From the NCBI GenBank assembly GCA_029239605.1, contig JARBUO010000004.1:1-64000 (forward strand): DNA of 64,000 nt, given 5' to 3'. Positions within the stretch are counted from its first letter, which is position 1. Every line of letters begins with the position of its first letter. The notes beneath the pieces are model-generated. The model searched no databases. It saw only the letters and a program-made list of their open reading frames with translations, and had not been told where the DNA came from. The position numbers and the translations under genes are program-made. The DNA is from Bacillota bacterium. Its GTDB lineage: Bacteria; Bacillota; Clostridia; Peptostreptococcales; Anaerovoracaceae. Below are positions 4,781 through 38,203 of this stretch, piece after piece.

Positions 4781-5527
4781 TTCTTTTTTCAGCCACGGAA
4801 CCATATGCATTTCAACCCGGTCAAGGATTTGGAACAAAAGGATGCCAACAAATCCCAAGGCTAGTATGCCGCTGAACATTTCAGTATAATTCATTTTTGT
4901 CCAAGCGCTTAAAATGTAGTAACCAATCCCGTAAGTTGTGGCATAATTCTCTGCGAAAAACAATGATGCAAGTGCAATTCCTATGCTGATCCTTAGTCCT
5001 GTAAAAAGCTGCGGGAGAATGGCTGGCAGAATTAAATACCGATACCTTTGCAATGCAGATACACAGAAACTATCCATAACCCTGAAATAAAGAGCAGAGA
5101 TCTGATCCACTCCATCTCTTACCGACAGCATAATTTGAAATATAATGATAAAGATTACGAGAATGATCTTGGAAGCATTGCCAAGCCCGAACAGCAGCAT
5201 AAAAACAGGGAGAAATGCAATCTTCGGAATGGGATACAAAAAGTATAACAGCGGTGAAAGAAGACGTCTGCATGTCTTATGAATCCCGAGAAGAATTCCT
5301 GCCGGGACACCTACGATCAGTGAAATTCCCACCGATGCAGCAACCCGAAGGATGCTTGCACAGCTATGTGTTGCCAGAGCTGCTGGAACCGTCAACATAT
5401 AAGCAATTGTCTCTACCGGAGAAGGAACCGTATGGGTTTTCAGCAACAAATGCAACAGTTCCCAGAGAAACAGAAAACTGATAAATCCCAATAATTTATT
5501 TTCTGTGATTTTTTTATCTTTCATCAT
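4775..5527 (-). CDS. ABC transporter permease, SsuC/TauC family
   Basis: A 250-residue inner-membrane protein with about six hydrophobic segments. The BPD_transp_1 loop is recognisable around FLYPIPKIAFLPVFMLLFGLG (PIPKIAFLP), typical of nitrate/sulfonate/taurine-type permeases. Its ATG overlaps the TGA of the upstream ATPase gene (ATGA), indicating translational coupling. With the ATPase at 5524-6285 and the lipoprotein at 3725-4696 it would make a complete importer. Confidence 0.88.
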   Translation of the reverse strand: MMKDKKITENKLLGFISFLFLWELLHLLLKTHTVPSPVETIAYMLTVPAALATHSCASILRVAASVGISLIVGVPAGILLGIHKTCRRLLSPLLYFLYPIPKIAFLPVFMLLFGLGNASKIILVIFIIIFQIMLSVRDGVDQISALYFRVMDSFCVSALQRYRYLILPAILPQLFTGLRISIGIALASLFFAENYATTYGIGYYILSAWTKMNYTEMFSGILALGFVGILLFQILDRVEMHMVPWLKKEK

Positions 5528-29383: not shown

Positions 29384-31126
29384 TTAGATGGTTTCATGTA
29401 CTTCAATGGGAATAAACTCAAATTTGGTCACATCAAACAAGCCCATGTCTGTCAGCTTAAGCTCTGGAATTACCGCAAGAGACATAAAGCAGAGGGTCAT
29501 GACAGGCTCAACATCCTCATTGACCTTGAGGACTTCGTGGGCCGCTTTATGAATTTTCGTGAGCTTTTCATCAATCCATTCACCGCTTTGATCGCTCATG
29601 AGGCCGGCAATGGGCATTGGCATGCTTTCCAGAATTTCCTGATTCTCTACGAGAATAATTCCTCCGTCCTGTTTGATCAGCTGTTCTACTGCAAAGACCA
29701 TATCCTCATCATTCACGCCCACCACAATGATATTATGGGAGTCATGGGCAATGGAAAGTGCAACCGCACCAGTTTTGATGCCGTATCCCTTCAGCAGCGC
29801 AACTGCCACATTTCCGGTATTCTGATGGCGCTCCACCACTGCAACCTTTACGATGTCTGAAGAGGGATCATAACAGAATTCGCTGTTCTCATCCCGTTTA
29901 ATCTCTGCAATTTCCTTGCCTGTCACAACACCACCGGGCAAAATATTGATCACATGTGCCCTTTGGGACTGAATGCGCAGTCTCAGTTTTTCTTTGGAAA
30001 AATCTTTGACATGAAAACTGCCCTTTGTTGCGGATATATCATAACGTTGAATGGGCAGCAGGTAGTTTCCTTCCGAAGCTGCTTCCTTTCCTTCTATGAA
30101 CACCTTCTGAACACGAAAGTCCTTCAAATTATCAAACAGCACGATGTCCGCCCGAAGTCCCGGAGCAATGGCACCTCTGTCAGCCAATCCAAAGCATTCA
30201 GCCGCATTGAGACTTGCCATTTGAATCGCCATAATGGGATCGATTCCTTCTTCTGAACAAATCCGCAAGTGATGATCCAAATGTCCTGTACTCAAGATCG
30301 TCTTTGGCTGACAATCGTCTGCACAGAAAACACAGCGCCTGCTATTCATCGGCGTTACACCTTTTAATAAATCTTTCAGGTTGTGGCAGGCCGATCCCTG
30401 ACGAAGCAATACATACATACCTCTTGCGATTCTCTCGTGCATTTCTGCCACAGAGGAACATTCATGATCCGTACGAATTCTGGCAGCCGCATAAGCGTTC
30501 AATGCATTGCCGGAGACTCCGGGGCTGTGTCCGTCGATTGGCTTCCCCTGATTCATTGCTACAAGAAGTTTGTCCAGGCTGTCGTCAGAGGCATTGATCA
30601 CCCCCGGGAAGTTCATGAATTCTCCAAGCCCAAGAATTCTTTCATTCTGAATTGGTTCTTTCATTGCTTCTGCATCGATGACCGCGCCTGCATGTTCAAA
30701 AGGCGTTGCCGGAACACAGGACGGCAGCATCCATTTTATATCAAGAACGGTTTCTCTGGAAGCTTCCATCATGTAATTCAGACCCTTTAGTCCGCAGACA
30801 TTGGTGATTTCATGAGGGTCCGCAATAATCGTCGTGGTGCCGTGAGGCACCACCATCCTGCCCAGTTCCTCAGGGCAAACATAGGAGGATTCCACATGGA
30901 TATGGCTGTCAATGAACCCGGGAGCCGCATATTGACCGTTCCCGTCGATTTCACGAAGGCCTTCATAAGTCCCAACGCCTGCAATCAAATCTTCACAGAT
31001 TGCAATGTCTCCTTCTATGACAGTACCGTTATAGACGTCCACAACTTTACAGTTTTTTATCACAACATCTGCGGGAATTCTTCCGGCCGCAGCGTCGATG
31101 AGTTTTTTTAAGCGTCTTTTTTCCAT
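29384..31126 (-). CDS. ade: Adenine deaminase
   Basis: About 580 residues, the normal length for the Ade amidohydrolase family. The metal-binding motif is GFIDSHIHVESS. VVPHGTTTIIADPHEITNV is the canonical second motif; VFCADDCQPKTILSTGHLDHH and the C-terminal half with AHDSHNIIVVG and GLMSDQSGEWI are also family-typical. It turns adenine into hypoxanthine and ammonia. ATG 31126 is preferred by spacing to AAGGGG; ATG 31132 is possible. It is the last gene of the purine operon, a few bases after a diverged paralogue. Confidence 0.93.
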   Translation of the reverse strand: MEKRRLKKLIDAAAGRIPADVVIKNCKVVDVYNGTVIEGDIAICEDLIAGVGTYEGLREIDGNGQYAAPGFIDSHIHVESSYVCPEELGRMVVPHGTTTIIADPHEITNVCGLKGLNYMMEASRETVLDIKWMLPSCVPATPFEHAGAVIDAEAMKEPIQNERILGLGEFMNFPGVINASDDSLDKLLVAMNQGKPIDGHSPGVSGNALNAYAAARIRTDHECSSVAEMHERIARGMYVLLRQGSACHNLKDLLKGVTPMNSRRCVFCADDCQPKTILSTGHLDHHLRICSEEGIDPIMAIQMASLNAAECFGLADRGAIAPGLRADIVLFDNLKDFRVQKVFIEGKEAASEGNYLLPIQRYDISATKGSFHVKDFSKEKLRLRIQSQRAHVINILPGGVVTGKEIAEIKRDENSEFCYDPSSDIVKVAVVERHQNTGNVAVALLKGYGIKTGAVALSIAHDSHNIIVVGVNDEDMVFAVEQLIKQDGGIILVENQEILESMPMPIAGLMSDQSGEWIDEKLTKIHKAAHEVLKVNEDVEPVMTLCFMSLAVIPELKLTDMGLFDVTKFEFIPIEVHETI

Positions 31127-31143: not shown

Positions 31144-32928
31144 CTAATTGTCCTTTACCAGTTCTAGAATCGGATCAAATGTTGATAGTGCAATGCAATC
31201 AACAGGACCTACATCTGTAATGGCATAGTCTGGAATTGCTGTTATGGGCAGGAAGAACATATACATCAGAGGTTCCGGCAAATCACAGCCAAGCTGATTT
31301 GCCGCTTTTGTAAGCAAGGTCTCACGATAAGCGATTTCTTCCGGTTCCAGATCGCTGGCGATTCCGCCCACTGGTAGTGGCAGGAATTCAATAATCTTAC
31401 CGTCTGCAACCACAACCTGTCCTCCGCCGTTTTCAATCAAATGGTTCACTGCCAGTGACATATCGGCAGCATCAGCTCCCATTACGATAATATTATTGTC
31501 GTCAGGGGCTGCAGAAGATGCCATTGCACCTTTTTTTAATTTCCATCCCGAGCAAAATGCCAGTGATTTATTTCCGTTCCGCCCGAAACGCTCCAGTACA
31601 GATACCATCAGAACATCCTGCTCAATGTCAGGCTGTACGATAGAATCCTTGACCTTTAGTATAACATCTCTTCGCTTTCTCACGAAAGGCCCAATCACAT
31701 TCATCGCAAGAACTTTTGCCTCGCCGTTTTCAAGTTCCACCCGATATTCAAAATCCTCTTTCGTCGTTCTGACGCATTTCAACTGACTGCTGAGAACACT
31801 GCTTCTTGCTGGTGCTTTCAGATCATAGTTGAGCTTTCTGTTTTCTGCCACCAGGCGTCCGCTTGAGATCACCGCGTTTACCTGGAAGGTTTCGAGGCTG
31901 TCAACCAGCAGAATGTCTGCGATTCTCCCCGGGGAAATGGAGCCTACCAGATGATCGATCCTGTACGCCTCAGCGCTGTTGATGGTAGCCATCTGAATTG
32001 CAGCCATGGGCTCTACGCCTTCGGCAATTGCCAGACGAACAAGGTTGTCCACATGTCCCTTTTCGATCACATCGGTGGCGGTGACGTCATCGGTACAAAA
32101 GCTGACCCGCCTTGCCAAAGCAGGATTCACTTCCGTTACAGCTCTGATATTTTCTTTTAGAAAGTGAGTTACAGAAGACTCTCTGATGACCATGTGCATT
32201 CCGTTTCTCATCTTCTCTACGACCTCTTCGTGATCGTAGCTTTCATGGTCCAGACGAACCCCTGCACAGAGGTACCCATTTAAATCTTTTCCCCGGGCCA
32301 TGGGAGCACAGCCGAAGACCGGAAGTCTGTTCCTGAATGCCTGCTCAATGGCGCCAAGGGTTTCTTCATCTTCTTCCTGTACGTATTCCCGAACCGTTTC
32401 CCAGACACCAAAGCATTCCGGCCATTGCTGCACTTCAGCATGGACTTCTTTGTTAAAGTTAAATGCCACCGTCGACTGAGGAAAGGTGTAAGGCGTTCTA
32501 TAAGGTGCGCCCCAGAATACCTTCAGGGGACTTGCCTTGATTTCTTCAAATACTTCTTTTAATCCGTCCAGCCCCGAAACAGAGATATATTCATCCAGGC
32601 CGGAGACTATGCTGGTGGTTCCGCAGGGAACTACTGCTTTTGCAAAGCTAGTAATACTCAGTTTACTGCATTCACTATGAATATGACCGTCAATGAGACC
32701 CGGAACCAGATACTTGCCCGAAGCATCGATGGTCTTTGTGTCAGGCCCCATATAGTCACGAACATCTCCGATGGCTACGATGGTATCTTCATAGATGGCA
32801 ACATTTGCCTGATAGATCTCGCTGGACATGACGTTTACAAGTGTTCCGTTGAGGATTACCGTATGTGCCGGAATCAATCCTCTCCCGGCACGAATCAGTT
32901 GTTTTAAATTGTTTATATTCTTTTGCAT
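31144..32928 (-). CDS. Adenine deaminase-family amidohydrolase, diverged paralogue
   Basis: A 594-residue protein alignable along its whole length with the next gene's adenine deaminase. The first metal motif is kept (GLIDGHIHSECS), but the second reads VVPCGTTSIVSGLDEYISV where canonical enzymes have PHGTT and ADPHEI, so conserved His and Glu/His positions are changed. FCTDDVTATDVIEKGHVDN and the C-terminal PDDNNIIVMG are retained. ATG 32928 has GGAGG upstream. It may deaminate a different purine or pterin, or act with its neighbour. The repeated RNA element at 32952-33016 lies directly before it. Confidence 0.85.
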   Translation of the reverse strand: MQKNINNLKQLIRAGRGLIPAHTVILNGTLVNVMSSEIYQANVAIYEDTIVAIGDVRDYMGPDTKTIDASGKYLVPGLIDGHIHSECSKLSITSFAKAVVPCGTTSIVSGLDEYISVSGLDGLKEVFEEIKASPLKVFWGAPYRTPYTFPQSTVAFNFNKEVHAEVQQWPECFGVWETVREYVQEEDEETLGAIEQAFRNRLPVFGCAPMARGKDLNGYLCAGVRLDHESYDHEEVVEKMRNGMHMVIRESSVTHFLKENIRAVTEVNPALARRVSFCTDDVTATDVIEKGHVDNLVRLAIAEGVEPMAAIQMATINSAEAYRIDHLVGSISPGRIADILLVDSLETFQVNAVISSGRLVAENRKLNYDLKAPARSSVLSSQLKCVRTTKEDFEYRVELENGEAKVLAMNVIGPFVRKRRDVILKVKDSIVQPDIEQDVLMVSVLERFGRNGNKSLAFCSGWKLKKGAMASSAAPDDNNIIVMGADAADMSLAVNHLIENGGGQVVVADGKIIEFLPLPVGGIASDLEPEEIAYRETLLTKAANQLGCDLPEPLMYMFFLPITAIPDYAITDVGPVDCIALSTFDPILELVKDN

Positions 32929-32951: not shown

Positions 32952-33016
32952 TAGATCCTCCGGCCATTGCTGGCGAACCAGGTTTCCCGTCCTGCGGCAA
33001 GGATCCTGACGAATTT
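32952..33016 (-). ncRNA. Repeated structured leader element, copy B, before the adenine deaminases
   Basis: On the minus strand box 1 AAATTCGTCA (33007-33016) and box 2 GCAGGACGGGAAACCTG (32979-32995) match copy A at 37897-37958, with a longer spacer of 11 bases. Box 2 folds as CAGG-ACGGGAAA-CCTG, and its loop GACGGG can pair with TTCGTC of box 1, a possible pseudoknot. Around it GATCCT pairs with AGGATC and GCC with GGC, and CTGG-TTCG-CCAG is a competing stem. No T-run follows; the adenine deaminase ribosome binding site is about 15 bases further on. Confidence 0.55.
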
Positions 33017-33074
33017 TCATTGGATCATTTCAGATCGGTTACTGAATCAATGGAGGTGAATGGTCAATTCACCT

Positions 33075-34257: not shown

Positions 34258-35187
34258 TTACCGGTCTTCCCGGTCGTATTTCTGGCATAAGGCTGCCGGT
34301 TCTTCGCTGTGCTTCTTTCGAAAGCTGCCGGTCGTAATAACCAATGCAACCACTGTAGCCGCATAGGGCAGCATGCCGTAAAATTGTGACGGAACACCGG
34401 GCAAATAAACCTGCATGTTGATTCCAAGGATACTGATCCCGCCAAAGAGCAATGCACCGAGAACGGCGTAAGCAGGATTCCACCTTGAGAACGCCACCAG
34501 AGAAAATGCGATCCACCCTTTGCCTCCTGTCATACCTTCATTCCAGAAGTTCGTATAGGACAACGAAATGCATGCTCCGCTGATGGTGGTCATTGCGCAG
34601 GCAAACATTACATAGCCATATCTCATAGCAAATACATTGATCCCTGCCTGATCTAAAGAAGCAGGATTTTCTCCCAATGCCCGGAGCATGAGCCCGGCCT
34701 TTGTTTTGTAGATGTAAAAAATGCTCAATGGGATCACCAGATACATCAGGTAGACGAAAATATCCTGCTGAAAGAAGATCTCACCGATGACCGGTATGGA
34801 AGAAAGTCCCGGAATGGGAATTGGCTCAAACTTAACAGCAGAAGCGATACCGGTGACACTTTTCCCAAGAAAACCGCTGAGACCGCTGCAGAAAATCAGA
34901 AATGCCATTCCGCATACCGTCTGATCAGCCTGCAGGGTTACGGTTAGAAATGCAAATGCAAGTCCAAGCAGCAAGCCTACCAAAATCGTTACGAGAAACG
35001 CCAGAAGAAGGTTTTCGGTATGATATACCGTCATAAAGCCCGACATCGCTCCCATAAGCATGATCCCCTCGATCCCAAGGTTCATAATACCTGCTCGCTG
35101 TGAAAAAATCTCTCCGATGGCAGCATACAAAATGGAGACCGCATAGACAATGGCTGCGGCACATATCGATGTTATAAATGAAATCAT
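34258..35187 (-). CDS. Nucleoside ABC transporter permease (NupQ type)
   Basis: A 309-residue BPD_transp_2 permease with eight or more hydrophobic helices. FSQRAGIMNLGIEGIMLMGAMSG and the EAA-like LGENPASLDQAGINVFAMRYGYVMF are typical of the BMP-linked nucleoside systems. Its ATG overlaps the stop of the preceding permease (ATGA). With 35184-36305 it forms the membrane channel. Confidence 0.9.
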   Translation of the reverse strand: MISFITSICAAAIVYAVSILYAAIGEIFSQRAGIMNLGIEGIMLMGAMSGFMTVYHTENLLLAFLVTILVGLLLGLAFAFLTVTLQADQTVCGMAFLIFCSGLSGFLGKSVTGIASAVKFEPIPIPGLSSIPVIGEIFFQQDIFVYLMYLVIPLSIFYIYKTKAGLMLRALGENPASLDQAGINVFAMRYGYVMFACAMTTISGACISLSYTNFWNEGMTGGKGWIAFSLVAFSRWNPAYAVLGALLFGGISILGINMQVYLPGVPSQFYGMLPYAATVVALVITTGSFRKKHSEEPAALCQKYDREDR

Positions 35188-36305
35188 TGTACCGCTCCTC
35201 CTTTTTGCTCTGAATGGTTGTTTTTTTGCTCTGCTCGTTTGCTTTCTGGATCCGCCTTGTAATATACAATCCTGTAGCGATTAAAGAATTCTCCGGCAAT
35301 TACCGAAATCATCAGAGTGCCCTGAATCATCGTAACGATCTGTGAAGGCACCCCCATGATCTGTACCACTGCGCTGCTGTTTTGCAGTGCTCCCAATAAA
35401 ACAGAAACCAGGAGGATAACAAGTGGGTTACACTGACTGAGATATGCGATGACGATACCCGTATACCCGCTACCTCCCGGAAGCTGAGCCTGTACACGAT
35501 GGACGATGCCTGTCACTTGAACAAAACCTGCAACTCCTGCCAAAGCTCCGCTGAGTGCCAGTACGATAAGGATATATTTCTTAACCGGAATCCCTGCGTA
35601 TTCTGCGGTACGAAGGCTGTTCTTAATCACGGAAATCTGGTAGCCCCCTGTTGTGTACTTTAAAAATAAGTATAGTAGAACTGCTATGATAATCGCCAGA
35701 AAAATACCGGAGCTGGTACCGCCGATCAATGGAAGATACATATCTTGCGGTATGGTAACCGTCATTGCAGTGGTCTGTTTTGGTGCCATCCAAGGCCCAT
35801 AACATAAGTAATCTAAAAATAATAAAGCAATATAATTCAGCATCAGTGTTACAATGGTTTCATTGACGTTCCAATATGCTTTCAGTGCAGCCGCAATGAG
35901 TGCCCATAAGCCGCCTCCGATAGCACAGAGAAAAAACATCACAATTCCAGAAAGTGGTGCAGGCAAAGCAGGTCCGTACAGCGCAAAAGCACCGCCGAAA
36001 ATCGCACCCATAGCAAACTGACCTTCCGCGCCGATATTATTGAGATTCATTTTAAAAGCGATGGCAACGCTGAGGCCGCAGAACATCAGAGGGAGCGCGG
36101 CATTGATACTCCCAATCAGTCCCCTGGTATTCAGAAGCGAATAGGTTATCATTTTTCCAAACACAGGAATGGGCTGAAATCCATTTGCCATGATAAAGAC
36201 AGAACTCAGTACAAAGCCAAGGAGGATAAAAATCACAGGGTTCAGTACTTTTCTGCTCAGGGAAACAGTTTGCTTCTTTTCAAATCTTATGGCTCCAATT
36301 TTCAT
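35184..36305 (-). CDS. Nucleoside ABC transporter permease (NupP type)
   Basis: A 373-residue BPD_transp_2 permease. INAALPLMFCGLSVAIAFKMNLNNIGAEGQFAMGAI is the family signature, and SLRTAEYAGIPVKKYILIVLALSGALAG is the cytoplasmic ATPase contact. A hydrophilic C-terminal tail rich in Lys/Glu follows. It is 9 bp from the ATPase gene and overlaps the next permease. Confidence 0.9.
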   Translation of the reverse strand: MKIGAIRFEKKQTVSLSRKVLNPVIFILLGFVLSSVFIMANGFQPIPVFGKMITYSLLNTRGLIGSINAALPLMFCGLSVAIAFKMNLNNIGAEGQFAMGAIFGGAFALYGPALPAPLSGIVMFFLCAIGGGLWALIAAALKAYWNVNETIVTLMLNYIALLFLDYLCYGPWMAPKQTTAMTVTIPQDMYLPLIGGTSSGIFLAIIIAVLLYLFLKYTTGGYQISVIKNSLRTAEYAGIPVKKYILIVLALSGALAGVAGFVQVTGIVHRVQAQLPGGSGYTGIVIAYLSQCNPLVILLVSVLLGALQNSSAVVQIMGVPSQIVTMIQGTLMISVIAGEFFNRYRIVYYKADPESKRAEQKNNHSEQKGGAVQ

Positions 36306-36314
36306 AGCTTCCTC

Positions 36315-37829
36315 CTATGCTGACTCACCAGACATCAGCCGTCCGATTTCTTCGTAGTCCGTCTCCGATGTATTCCGAATTCCCATAAGCTTTCCCCCAC
36401 ATAAGACAGCCACCCGATCAGATAGTTCGAAAATTTCGTCCAATTCTTCAGAGATCAACAGAACACAAGCACCTCTGTTGCGCTGTTCCAGCAGCGTTCT
36501 GTGGATTGCAGCTGTTGCTCCGATATCCAATCCCCGGACGGGATAAGCTGCAATGATCAACTCTGGATTTCCATTGATTTCTCTTGCAATCAGAAGTTTT
36601 TGCTGATTCCCGCCAGACATCAGACTGACAGGCAAATCTAACCCGCCGTGTTTGATGTCATGATCCGATACGTGCTTTTCGGTCAGCGCCCGAATGGCTT
36701 TGCTTAGCAGAATACCTCCCCTGCTGTAAGCCTTTCCTCTGAATTCCTTTAAAACCGTATTTTCTTTCATATTCATCCCTGGAATCAATCCCATTTTCAG
36801 ACGATCTTCCGGGATAAAGGAAATCCCCTTCGAAACTCTTCCTCTGATGTTTGTCTTCGTAATTTCATTTCCTTTCATTAAGATCCTGCCTGAGGTGATT
36901 TTTCTCAGCCCGGCAAGCGCTTCCGCCAGCTCACGCTGACCGCTTCCGGCAACACCGGCAATGGCAAAGATTTCTCCAGCTTTGAGTTGAAAGGAGATAT
37001 CATGCAGGGCAACCAGTCCTTTATCGTTTAAAACCCGAAGATCTTTTGCATCGATAAGGAGCTCGCCGGTTTTCCCTTTGGATCTTATGGTGATTTTTTC
37101 GATATCCCGTTCTCCTACCACCGCTTTTGCCATCCGGTCAATATCAGCGTCTGACGCCAGCATCCGGTCTGTTACTCTACCGTTTTTCAGCACTGTAATT
37201 CGATCGGCATGTTCCATAACTTCATTCATTTTATGTGATATAAAGATAATGGACTTTCCATGCTCTGCCATTTTGCGAAGTGTTTTAAACATTTCACCGG
37301 CTTCTTGTGGCGTCAAAACAGCAGTAGGCTCGTCCAGAACAAGAATCTCACAATTTCTGCAAAGCAGCTTCATGATTTCAACTCTCTGCTGCTCTCCTAC
37401 AGAAAGCTGCCACACCTTAGCTCCGGGATCAACTTCCAGGGAAAATTGTTCAGAGTATTCCCGAATCTTATTCTCCATTTTCTGCTGATCTAAAATAAAA
37501 CTGCAATGGTCAAGACTCAAAAAGATATTCTCTGCTACTGTCAGCGTTGGAATCAGAGCAAAGTGCTGGTGCACCATGCCGATTCCCAGCGCTGCAGCAT
37601 GTTTCGGCGTCTTGATCTGCCCTTTTTCTCCCTTATAAAGCATCTCACCAGAATTGGGCTTATAGATACCCAAAAGAATGTTCATTAATGTACTTTTTCC
37701 CGAACCGTTTTCTCCCAGCAAAGCATGAATCTCACCGGGGTATAACTGTAGATCGATATGGTCGTTTGCCAGAACAGTACCAAATTTTTTCGTTATTCCT
37801 TTCATTTCCAGTAAAGCTGTTTTTTCCAT
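36315..37829 (-). CDS. Nucleoside ABC transporter double ATPase (NupO/RbsA-like)
   Basis: A 504-residue protein with two fused ABC domains. Domain 1 has GENGSGKST, LSVGEQQRVEIMKLL and LVLDEPTAVLTP. Domain 2 has GVAGSGQRELAEAL and MSGGNQQKLLIAREI, with the degenerate Walker A and AAYPVRGLDIGA typical of this class. ATG 37829 follows GGAGAG at 6 bp; the TTG six bases upstream is less likely. First gene of the purine operon, under the riboswitch leader at 37897-38144. Confidence 0.92.
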   Translation of the reverse strand: MEKTALLEMKGITKKFGTVLANDHIDLQLYPGEIHALLGENGSGKSTLMNILLGIYKPNSGEMLYKGEKGQIKTPKHAAALGIGMVHQHFALIPTLTVAENIFLSLDHCSFILDQQKMENKIREYSEQFSLEVDPGAKVWQLSVGEQQRVEIMKLLCRNCEILVLDEPTAVLTPQEAGEMFKTLRKMAEHGKSIIFISHKMNEVMEHADRITVLKNGRVTDRMLASDADIDRMAKAVVGERDIEKITIRSKGKTGELLIDAKDLRVLNDKGLVALHDISFQLKAGEIFAIAGVAGSGQRELAEALAGLRKITSGRILMKGNEITKTNIRGRVSKGISFIPEDRLKMGLIPGMNMKENTVLKEFRGKAYSRGGILLSKAIRALTEKHVSDHDIKHGGLDLPVSLMSGGNQQKLLIAREINGNPELIIAAYPVRGLDIGATAAIHRTLLEQRNRGACVLLISEELDEIFELSDRVAVLCGGKLMGIRNTSETDYEEIGRLMSGESA

Positions 37830-37896: not shown

Positions 37897-37958
37897 AAAA
37901 AAGTCAAACTGCAGTTAGGAAAACGATCAGGCTTCCCGTCCTGCAATTTGACGAATTT
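37897..37958 (-). ncRNA. Repeated structured leader element, copy A, with its own terminator
   Basis: On the minus strand box 1 AAATTCGTCA (37949-37958) is followed after 4 bases by box 2 GCAGGACGGGAAGCCTG (37928-37944). Box 2 can fold as a CAGG/CCTG hairpin whose loop ACGGG could pair with box 1. Alternatively GTCAAATTGCAG (37941-37952) pairs with CTGCAGTTTGAC (37903-37914) over 12 positions, followed by TTTTTT (37897-37902): an intrinsic terminator. Its 5' arm uses bases of both conserved boxes, so the two folds exclude each other, as in a switch that turns genes on. It lies between the purine riboswitch and the ATPase gene. Confidence 0.6.
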
Positions 37959-37980
37959 CTGTGACGATATGAAATTAAAC

Positions 37981-38014
37981 AAAAAAAATAGATTAAGAAC
38001 AGTGTTCTTAATCT
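37981..38014 (-). terminator. Terminator of the purine riboswitch
   Basis: AGATTAAGAAC and GTTCTTAATCT form a perfect stem with a 3-base loop, followed on the minus strand by ATTTTTTTT. The GAACAC inside it can instead pair with GTGTTC just after the aptamer's P1, giving an antiterminator. Ligand binding should therefore favour termination. Confidence 0.85.
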
Positions 38015-38078
38015 TCAAAATTTATGCAACACAAAAACAAAGCAAGTGCAATGCTTTCACTGCAAGAAGAAACGAACA

Positions 38079-38144
38079 CCATAGCGTAGGTAATTTATGG
38101 TTACCACGTAGAAACTCCCGCACCGTATTTGCGGACTAATATGG
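38079..38144 (-). ncRNA. Purine riboswitch aptamer, guanine class
   Basis: The minus strand matches the purine aptamer consensus. P1 is CCATA/TATGG; P2 is CCGCA/TGCGG with loop AATACGG; J2/3 is GAGTTTCTAC; P3 carries the L3 segment GGTAACCATAAATTACC. The GG in L2 and CC in L3 needed for loop-loop pairing are present. The base before TATGG in J3/1 is C, the position that reads guanine or hypoxanthine rather than adenine. It heads the leader of the nucleoside ABC transporter and adenine deaminase operon. Confidence 0.93.
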
Positions 38145-38174: not shown

Positions 38175-38203
38175 AATCTAGCATAACGTTCGACAAATGT
38201 CAA
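38175..38203 (-). promoter_or_regulatory. Sigma-A promoter of the purine operon
   Basis: TTGACA (38198-38203) and TAGATT (38175-38180), 17 bp apart on the minus strand, place the start near 38168, about 24 bases before the riboswitch aptamer. Confidence 0.85.

Follow-up and report, generated by a model that had tools for sequence, protein, structure and literature searches.

The window analysed here is a stretch of 64,000 nucleotides from a contig of a Bacillota bacterium (JARBUO010000004.1), the minus strand of which carries an operon that joins an ABC transporter to two members of the adenine-deaminase family. The operon begins with the ATPase of a BMP-type transporter (36,315–37,829), followed by two BPD_transp_2 permeases (permease 1, 35,184–36,305; permease 2, 34,258–35,187), a BMP/PnrA-like substrate-binding lipoprotein (PF02608; 33,075–34,190), a divergent adenine-deaminase paralog, ade1 (31,144–32,928), and a second gene of that family, ade2 (29,384–31,126). 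Relatives of this kind of BMP protein bind purine bases. The initial annotation had taken the transporter to be of a nucleoside type, a point to be corrected: the PDB sequences nearest to its binding protein are 6pi5, an atrazine periplasmic binding protein, and 3s99, a basic membrane lipoprotein, so that the nearest solved substrate-binding relative binds atrazine and not a nucleoside. On the adenine-deaminase model TIGR01178, the Ade1 of the window scores 376.5 bits and Ade1 proteins together 370–377 bits, below the cut-off of 472.5. Ade2, assigned in the window by a Pfam scan only, has orthologs at three loci (L139, L145 and L198) that score 612–641 bits, over that cut-off. The two genomes in which ade1 was searched for on its own, the window's and that of a relative (G008), yielded no Ade-like genes besides ade1 and ade2 of this operon.

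Upstream of the ATPase lies a layered leader. A promoter-like sequence of the sigma-70 type (38,175–38,203; TTGACA and TAGATT spaced by 17 nucleotides, with TG before the second hexamer), recognized by its match to the consensus only, precedes a purine riboswitch aptamer (RF00167; 38,062–38,164; 58 bits against a gathering threshold of 37) and a first intrinsic terminator (37,981–38,014), composed of a hairpin (38,014–37,990) and a T-run with its last T at 37,981, which is presumed to be the expression platform of the aptamer. Just as the initial annotation had it, a further element (element 2; 37,958–37,897) lies behind this aptamer and terminator, with a terminator of its own and before the ATPase start at 37,829.

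Element 2 consists of an upstream box, AAATTC (37,953–37,958), and a second intrinsic terminator (37,897–37,952), identified by fold and covariation, in which a conserved core is embedded. The 12-bp arms of the terminator (GTCAAATTGCAG, 37,952–37,941; CTGCAGTTTGAC, 37,914–37,903) are followed by six T (37,902–37,897). Within them, the core can be drawn as a hairpin (37,928–37,943) made of CAGG (37,943–37,940), the loop ACGGGAAG (37,939–37,932) and CCTG (37,931–37,928), with GTTTTCC (37,924–37,918) downstream. The invariant part of CAGG-ACGGGAAG-CCTG is AGGACGGGAARCC, and the consensus core (AGG, the loop ACGGGAAR and CC) comprises 13 nearly invariant nucleotides; the tip of the predicted hairpin varies among members. 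Positions 37,965–37,890 fold at −26.4 kcal/mol (z = −4.84), a value equalled by none of 200 shuffles, and the minimum-energy fold is the 12-bp terminator with an inner stem.

None of the 4,227 families among the Rfam 15 covariance models matches element 2. The sole overlap at E ≤ 10 is with mir-929 (17.3 bits, E = 0.92, gathering threshold 56), a chance match, and neither RF00167 nor a ykkC subtype (guanidine-I, ppGpp, PRPP or NDP) was found in the element itself. A literature search, in which few subscription papers were covered, returned no published description of such an element, and the word deaminase does not occur in the accessible portions of four motif-discovery papers (PMC11109978, PMC8632094, PMC6429828 and PMC2864571) and a review (PMC7266159). 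Judged by these searches, element 2 appears to be undescribed and to belong to no Rfam family; the comparison with guanidine-IV was made by eye, and those with Gd4v and thiS by published descriptions of genes and architecture.

A search at the DNA level of 99 genomes, among them the window's own, uncovered close copies of the element in two genomes of the window's genus (G006, 95% identity; G008, 93%), the leaders of which align to that of the window over 322–340 columns, purine aptamer included. Across the eight genomes of the genus that were searched, the exact core lies outside coding sequence only in these two; a match in G001 sits inside coding sequence and was discarded. A third copy, in G008, matches the window at 89% of 65 columns and lies before a truncated ATPase fragment. 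In this decayed duplicate (L034, 3959–4440; G008:C1 near 3065187), element 2 scores 48.5 bits, and an Rfam purine match was not found in the leader. The duplicate's coding start is 74% identical to that of the intact copy in G008, so the element, at 89%, seems to have been held more tightly than the neighbouring gene.

More distant relatives came from a scan of the genome collection for permease 1, which yielded 15 loci at 84–49% identity. Exact AGGACGGGAARCC is present at eight of them (L138–L143, L145 and L149), each time in the leader that precedes either the ATPase gene or ade1, and in seven of the eight the permease is only 52–71% identical to that of the window. A model built from four sequences of the window's genus alone (R1) matched L138 (E = 3e-21; this contig appears to belong to G006 and was counted as such), L140 (1e-10), L145 (9e-7) and L141 (0.009) and, more weakly and in the same placement, L149 (0.16), L139 (0.64) and L143 (1.7). 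The conserved boxes that the initial annotation had pointed out are thus present in homologous leaders, which hold more than a plain terminator. Its tandem of purine aptamer and second element also recurs in two other lineages, L139 and L140, in which RF00167 scores 58 and 60.7 bits, respectively. In the leaders of L141, L142, L143, L145 and L149, no Rfam purine match was found and the element stands alone. Because it sometimes occurs without the purine aptamer, the element is an independent unit that is stacked behind a purine switch in some lineages.

The operon of the window also contains a second copy of the element, absent from the initial annotation, between the BMP gene and ade1 (32,953–33,017). 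This copy, recognized by its core and box, has no terminator. It comprises the box AAAATTC, an outer stem (GGATCC/GGATCT), the core CAGG-ACGGGAAA-CCTG and a possible GCCA-GCAA-TGGC hairpin, and in place of the T-run it is followed by A-rich sequence, a ribosome-binding site (GGAGG, 32,938–32,934) and the ATG of ade1 at 32,928. The same terminator-less form precedes ade1 in G008 and in two genomes of the family, G055 and G516, which were the only ones besides the window with real matches when 109 family genomes were scanned with the core pattern (matches in G013 and G525 were judged from the matched letters to be chance). The outer stems of this form differ yet pair (GGATCC/GGATCT, AGATAC/GTATCT). 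A model that expects a terminator (R2) scored 18.1 bits (E = 1.3) for the second window copy and E = 0.11 for the G055 copy, and its scores were unconvincing for the terminator-less copies and for L142 alike (E = 0.11–1.3); these members therefore rest on core and box, and the terminator-less ones on the outer stem as well. Altogether, 14 intact copies in ten lineages were counted, two in the window, one in G006, two in G008, one each in G055 and G516, and one at each of seven further loci (L139, L140, L141, L142, L143, L145 and L149), besides the single decayed copy in G008.

A covariation test, which the initial annotation had proposed, was run on alignments from which the decayed G008 copy had been dropped (A5–A7), together with L142 in A6 and A7, because of its different spacing; A7, which also omits G006 and both G008 copies, entered no count. 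The test revealed that the terminator arms have been rewritten by compensatory changes across lineages. Over 12 terminator pairs in 9 sequences, 94.4% of the cells are paired, and 7 of the 12 pairs have changed on both sides (mean of shuffles 3.6; reached by 5 of 500), with a covariation score of 0.606 against a shuffled mean of 0.352. When the partner column was slid by 1–3 columns, 28.7–41.7% remained paired and 0–1 pairs had changed on both sides. The exception among the five measures was the number of pair types, which did not exceed the shuffles (16 versus 14.7; 112 of 500). A nested version that includes the core hairpin has two-sided changes in 8 of 13 pairs, and in 0–1 when slid. Among the four pairs of the core hairpin, two never vary and one varies on both sides (C–G and U–A, with one exception); L141 and L139 each break one pair. 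In these alignments, comparative support for the core hairpin is thin.

The upstream box was counted separately, leaving out the G006 and G008 copies. Nine of 11 members have AAATTC no more than 50 nt upstream of the core, compared with 1.04 expected from dinucleotide shuffles, which would correspond to a tail probability of about 1e-8 if the members were independent, as related members are not; the exceptions are L139, with AAGTTC, and L141, with no TTC there. The loop sequence GGGAA can pair with the UUC of this box, and we infer a loop–box pseudoknot from this complementarity; covariation cannot support it, because the UUC and GAA partners are nearly invariant. The initial annotation had proposed that a hairpin with such loop-to-upstream pairing competes with the terminator. 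The alternative can be drawn and its letters are conserved in distant relatives, but it is not the minimum-energy fold. Of 13 members, only L142 and L143 have the core hairpin in their minimum-energy fold. In both, GGGAA is the open loop on a core hairpin formed together with the terminator; direct strand competition is thus not universal. In 7 of the 10 terminator-type copies, representing 5 of 8 lineages (window copy 1, G006, G008, L140, L145, L141 and L139), the minimum-energy fold pairs GGGAA with the downstream pyrimidine stretch, and in L149 it is partly paired to its own 3′ strand.

In the homolog set, the presence of the element follows that of ade1. Seven loci (L139, L140, L141, L142, L143, L145 and L149) carry ade1 at 73–77% identity, and all seven carry the element; at L138 the element is present and the contig ends before ade1. 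The other 7 of the 15 permease-found loci (L144, L146, L147, L148, L150, L151 and L152) have the homologous transporter with neither ade1 nor the core, although at L147, L150 and L152 the contig begins within or beyond the ATPase gene, leaving the leader unseen, and the L148 contig is cut downstream. As the element is found at all seven ade1 loci of this set and was seen at no transporter locus lacking ade1, the ligand seems to track the deaminases. The constant partner in the loci seen is therefore the adenine-deaminase pair, rather than the BMP-type transporter named in the initial annotation. The gene is also present, at 86–94% identity, in G008, G055 and G516; since the element or its DNA was what led to these genomes, they do not test the link with ade1 independently. 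The operon of G055 and G516 runs from the element through ade1 and ade2 to the gene for a 521-aa protein, which we assume to be a permease because its sequence is hydrophobic (no Pfam match was found for the G055 copy); homologous BMP-type transporter genes were not found within 15 kb.

Given the identical core in distant bacteria and the neighbouring ade pair, the element probably responds to a compound related to purines by activating those genes. We estimate a probability of roughly 60% that it represents a rare, undescribed riboswitch class with its aptamer inside its own terminator, probably acting as an ON switch in response to a purine nucleobase; the small share of members with the core hairpin in their minimum-energy fold and the partly non-independent ade1 association slightly lowered this estimate. 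The initial proposal of a new, switch-like second element was refuted neither by an Rfam match nor by homologous leaders with a plain terminator. With ligand present, the core hairpin would form and its loop GGGAA would pair with the UUC of the upstream box, a fold incompatible with the zipped terminator, so that transcription would continue. Without ligand, the arms would zip into the terminator, with GGGAA drawn into the pyrimidine stretch in the seven of ten terminator-type members described above. Because the element goes with the ade1–ade2 pair, the ligand would most likely be a purine nucleobase, such as adenine or a relative, that the deaminases consume or produce. In the window, where the element stands behind a purine switch presumed to be OFF, the operon would be expressed only when guanine-type purine is low and the second ligand is present. 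A mechanism other than termination is needed for the four terminator-less copies; the one before ade1 in the window would affect translation or the fate of the mRNA, a translational effect being a guess. A broader version of this reading, in which the class is dedicated to the ade1–ade2 pathway and senses a purine nucleobase or an unusual purine on which Ade1 acts, has in our view an even chance of being correct. It would comprise two architectures in one operon, terminator-embedded before the transporter and terminator-less before the deaminases, and a two-input gate where the element is stacked behind a purine OFF switch.

Some properties of the core would suit a protein as well as a small molecule: it is compact, and the same 13 nearly invariant nucleotides occur in leaders with and without a terminator, as is possible for protein sites. 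That the core is the binding site of an RNA-binding antiterminator or repressor is nevertheless unlikely, as no antiterminator-like gene was noticed by eye among the neighbouring open reading frame starts, and the purine tandem and gene content resemble validated riboswitch operons as described in the accessible part of PMC6478431. Slightly less likely again is a riboswitch of the opposite sign, in which the ligand would stabilize the core inside the terminator hairpin and turn the operon off. The folds of L142 and L143, with the core hairpin predicted inside the terminator, are what it would predict; yet it leaves the box found in 9 of 11 members without an evident role, GGGAA is paired away in the predicted terminator in 7 of 10 terminator-type members, and we infer that induction by the substrate is the likelier mode of control for an operon of uptake and deamination. 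An ordinary terminator whose sequence was conserved by close descent would account for the 93–95% identity over the element within the window's genus, but not for arms that were rewritten across lineages while the loop side stayed invariant, nor for a core that persists without a terminator in four copies, and we regard it as highly improbable.

Guanidine-IV riboswitches and their Gd4v relatives share the regulatory logic of the proposed ON switch. In guanidine-IV, according to the text available for PMC11611296, a kissing loop with the pairs A29–U72 and C30–G71 and a conserved G77 hinders completion of the terminator, and the Lactococcus lactis mutants G66, U67 and G72 give a GU-N4-G pattern (PMC7736828, seen in part). 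As in these families, loop-mediated pairing in element 2 would block terminator completion, and the terminator is part of the aptamer (PMC7736828 and PMC9788692, in the portions available). By eye, however, the element sequences have no GU-N4-G in the second loop, and no 5′ hairpin with an AC loop kissing a GU in the terminator loop. The window has a possible but weak 5′ hairpin of six mostly A/U pairs; it is broken up in G006 and G008, and by eye none is evident in the other members. SugE, MATE or transaminase genes were not seen directly downstream by eye; Gd4v is associated with a transaminase gene in over half of cases, as stated in the accessible text of PMC9788692, whereas the genes of our element encode an ABC transporter and adenine deaminases, a comparison made in part only and by description. 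Membership of guanidine-IV is thus not supported, and it is improbable that the element belongs to, or is a direct variant of, either group. Guanidine-IV had been the first lead, and was followed through 14 SMR/SugE leaders (PF00893) from 147 class genomes, none of which resembles element 2; by eye, seven of the 14 are like guanidine-I (ykkC) and one (L055) is like guanidine-IV. The latter, an SMR leader of G231 (L137/L055), has the hairpin loop TACCGA and, later, GGTCTTAG.

Two other known systems offer architectural parallels, for which the sources were likewise available in part. The HMP-PP (thiS) riboswitch has a small aptamer contained almost entirely in an intrinsic terminator, with a possible pseudoknot, and acts as an ON switch; about 30% of its members follow immediately after a complete TPP riboswitch that has a separate terminator (PMC6478431). 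The ten terminator-type copies of our element likewise have a putative terminator-embedded aptamer, a likeness of architecture alone and not of sequence, but the associated genes are those of purine transport and adenine deaminase, with no thiazole or thiamin genes. In the guanine–PRPP tandem, two aptamers spaced by 5–7 nt share one common terminator and form an IMPLY gate (PMC5912903). There as here, a guanine-class aptamer comes first, a second aptamer (here a putative one) lies behind it and purine genes are downstream (PMC5912903); by contrast, the two here each come with a separate terminator, and the resulting gate would be NOT-purine AND ligand. The purine riboswitch RF00167 itself shares the leader, upstream of element 2, which has no RF00167 match of its own.

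Wider searches added few candidates. In 391 genomes of the class, R1 gave five weak matches outside the window's own genome, none with the core, and R2, run on the same number with stricter filters that lose weak matches, again gave five weak non-own matches and none with the core. Two R2 matches (L163 and L165, 36 and 30 bits, in G006 and G008) are flanked by a regulator gene and an alanine-dehydrogenase-like gene and were left out of the membership because the core is altered in one of them; in these terminators (L163 656–709 and L165 1501–1554), GACGGGAAACC is present in one of the two genomes, probably by chance. The core pattern had six non-own matches in 260 class genomes, compared with nine for a reversed control pattern. 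The 30 purine riboswitch loci covered, out of a longer list of matches, include none with the core and one R1 match (E = 1.3); 3 of the 30 adjoin a BMP gene, at 30–32% identity. Likewise, the exact core is in none of 29 non-own ATPase-homolog loci of the class (44–49% identical), and two such loci with R1 scores of E = 0.05–0.06 (L131 and L132) are plain terminators that lack the core. In viral contigs, two pattern scans picked up 2 and 12 loci (best R2 E = 1.4), which were treated as chance as none was convincing by R2. With no clear further member in the 260 class genomes searched by pattern and the 391 searched by model, the class appears to be rare.

Rare riboswitch classes easily escape genome-wide screens, and this element is small with a sharp consensus. 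Its narrow gene association makes for a short ligand hunt, among purines and Ade1 substrates; it sits in a natural two-input tandem, and it gives a handle on the role of the divergent Ade1 paralog.

Further observations concern the neighbouring elements and loci. The purine aptamers of the three tandem leaders (38,164–38,062 on the minus strand of the window, L139 5150–5252 and L140 1666–1768) have common departures from the usual junctions: by our own reading, J1/2 is AUAUUAG or AUAUGAG and J3/1 is ACGCUAU, with U51 and C74 kept. These aptamers may be a variant with shifted specificity. At L141, the stretch from a TTGACA-like promoter to element 2 contains a terminator-like hairpin followed by nine T (around 5290–5320); an Rfam aptamer was not found upstream of it, and it is possibly another small switch. 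Three loci without the element (L144 6117–9329, L150 3552–5828 and L151 3057–5270) adjoin genes that by eye are molybdenum-hydroxylase-like, of the xanthine dehydrogenase type, which suggests a different purine route there.
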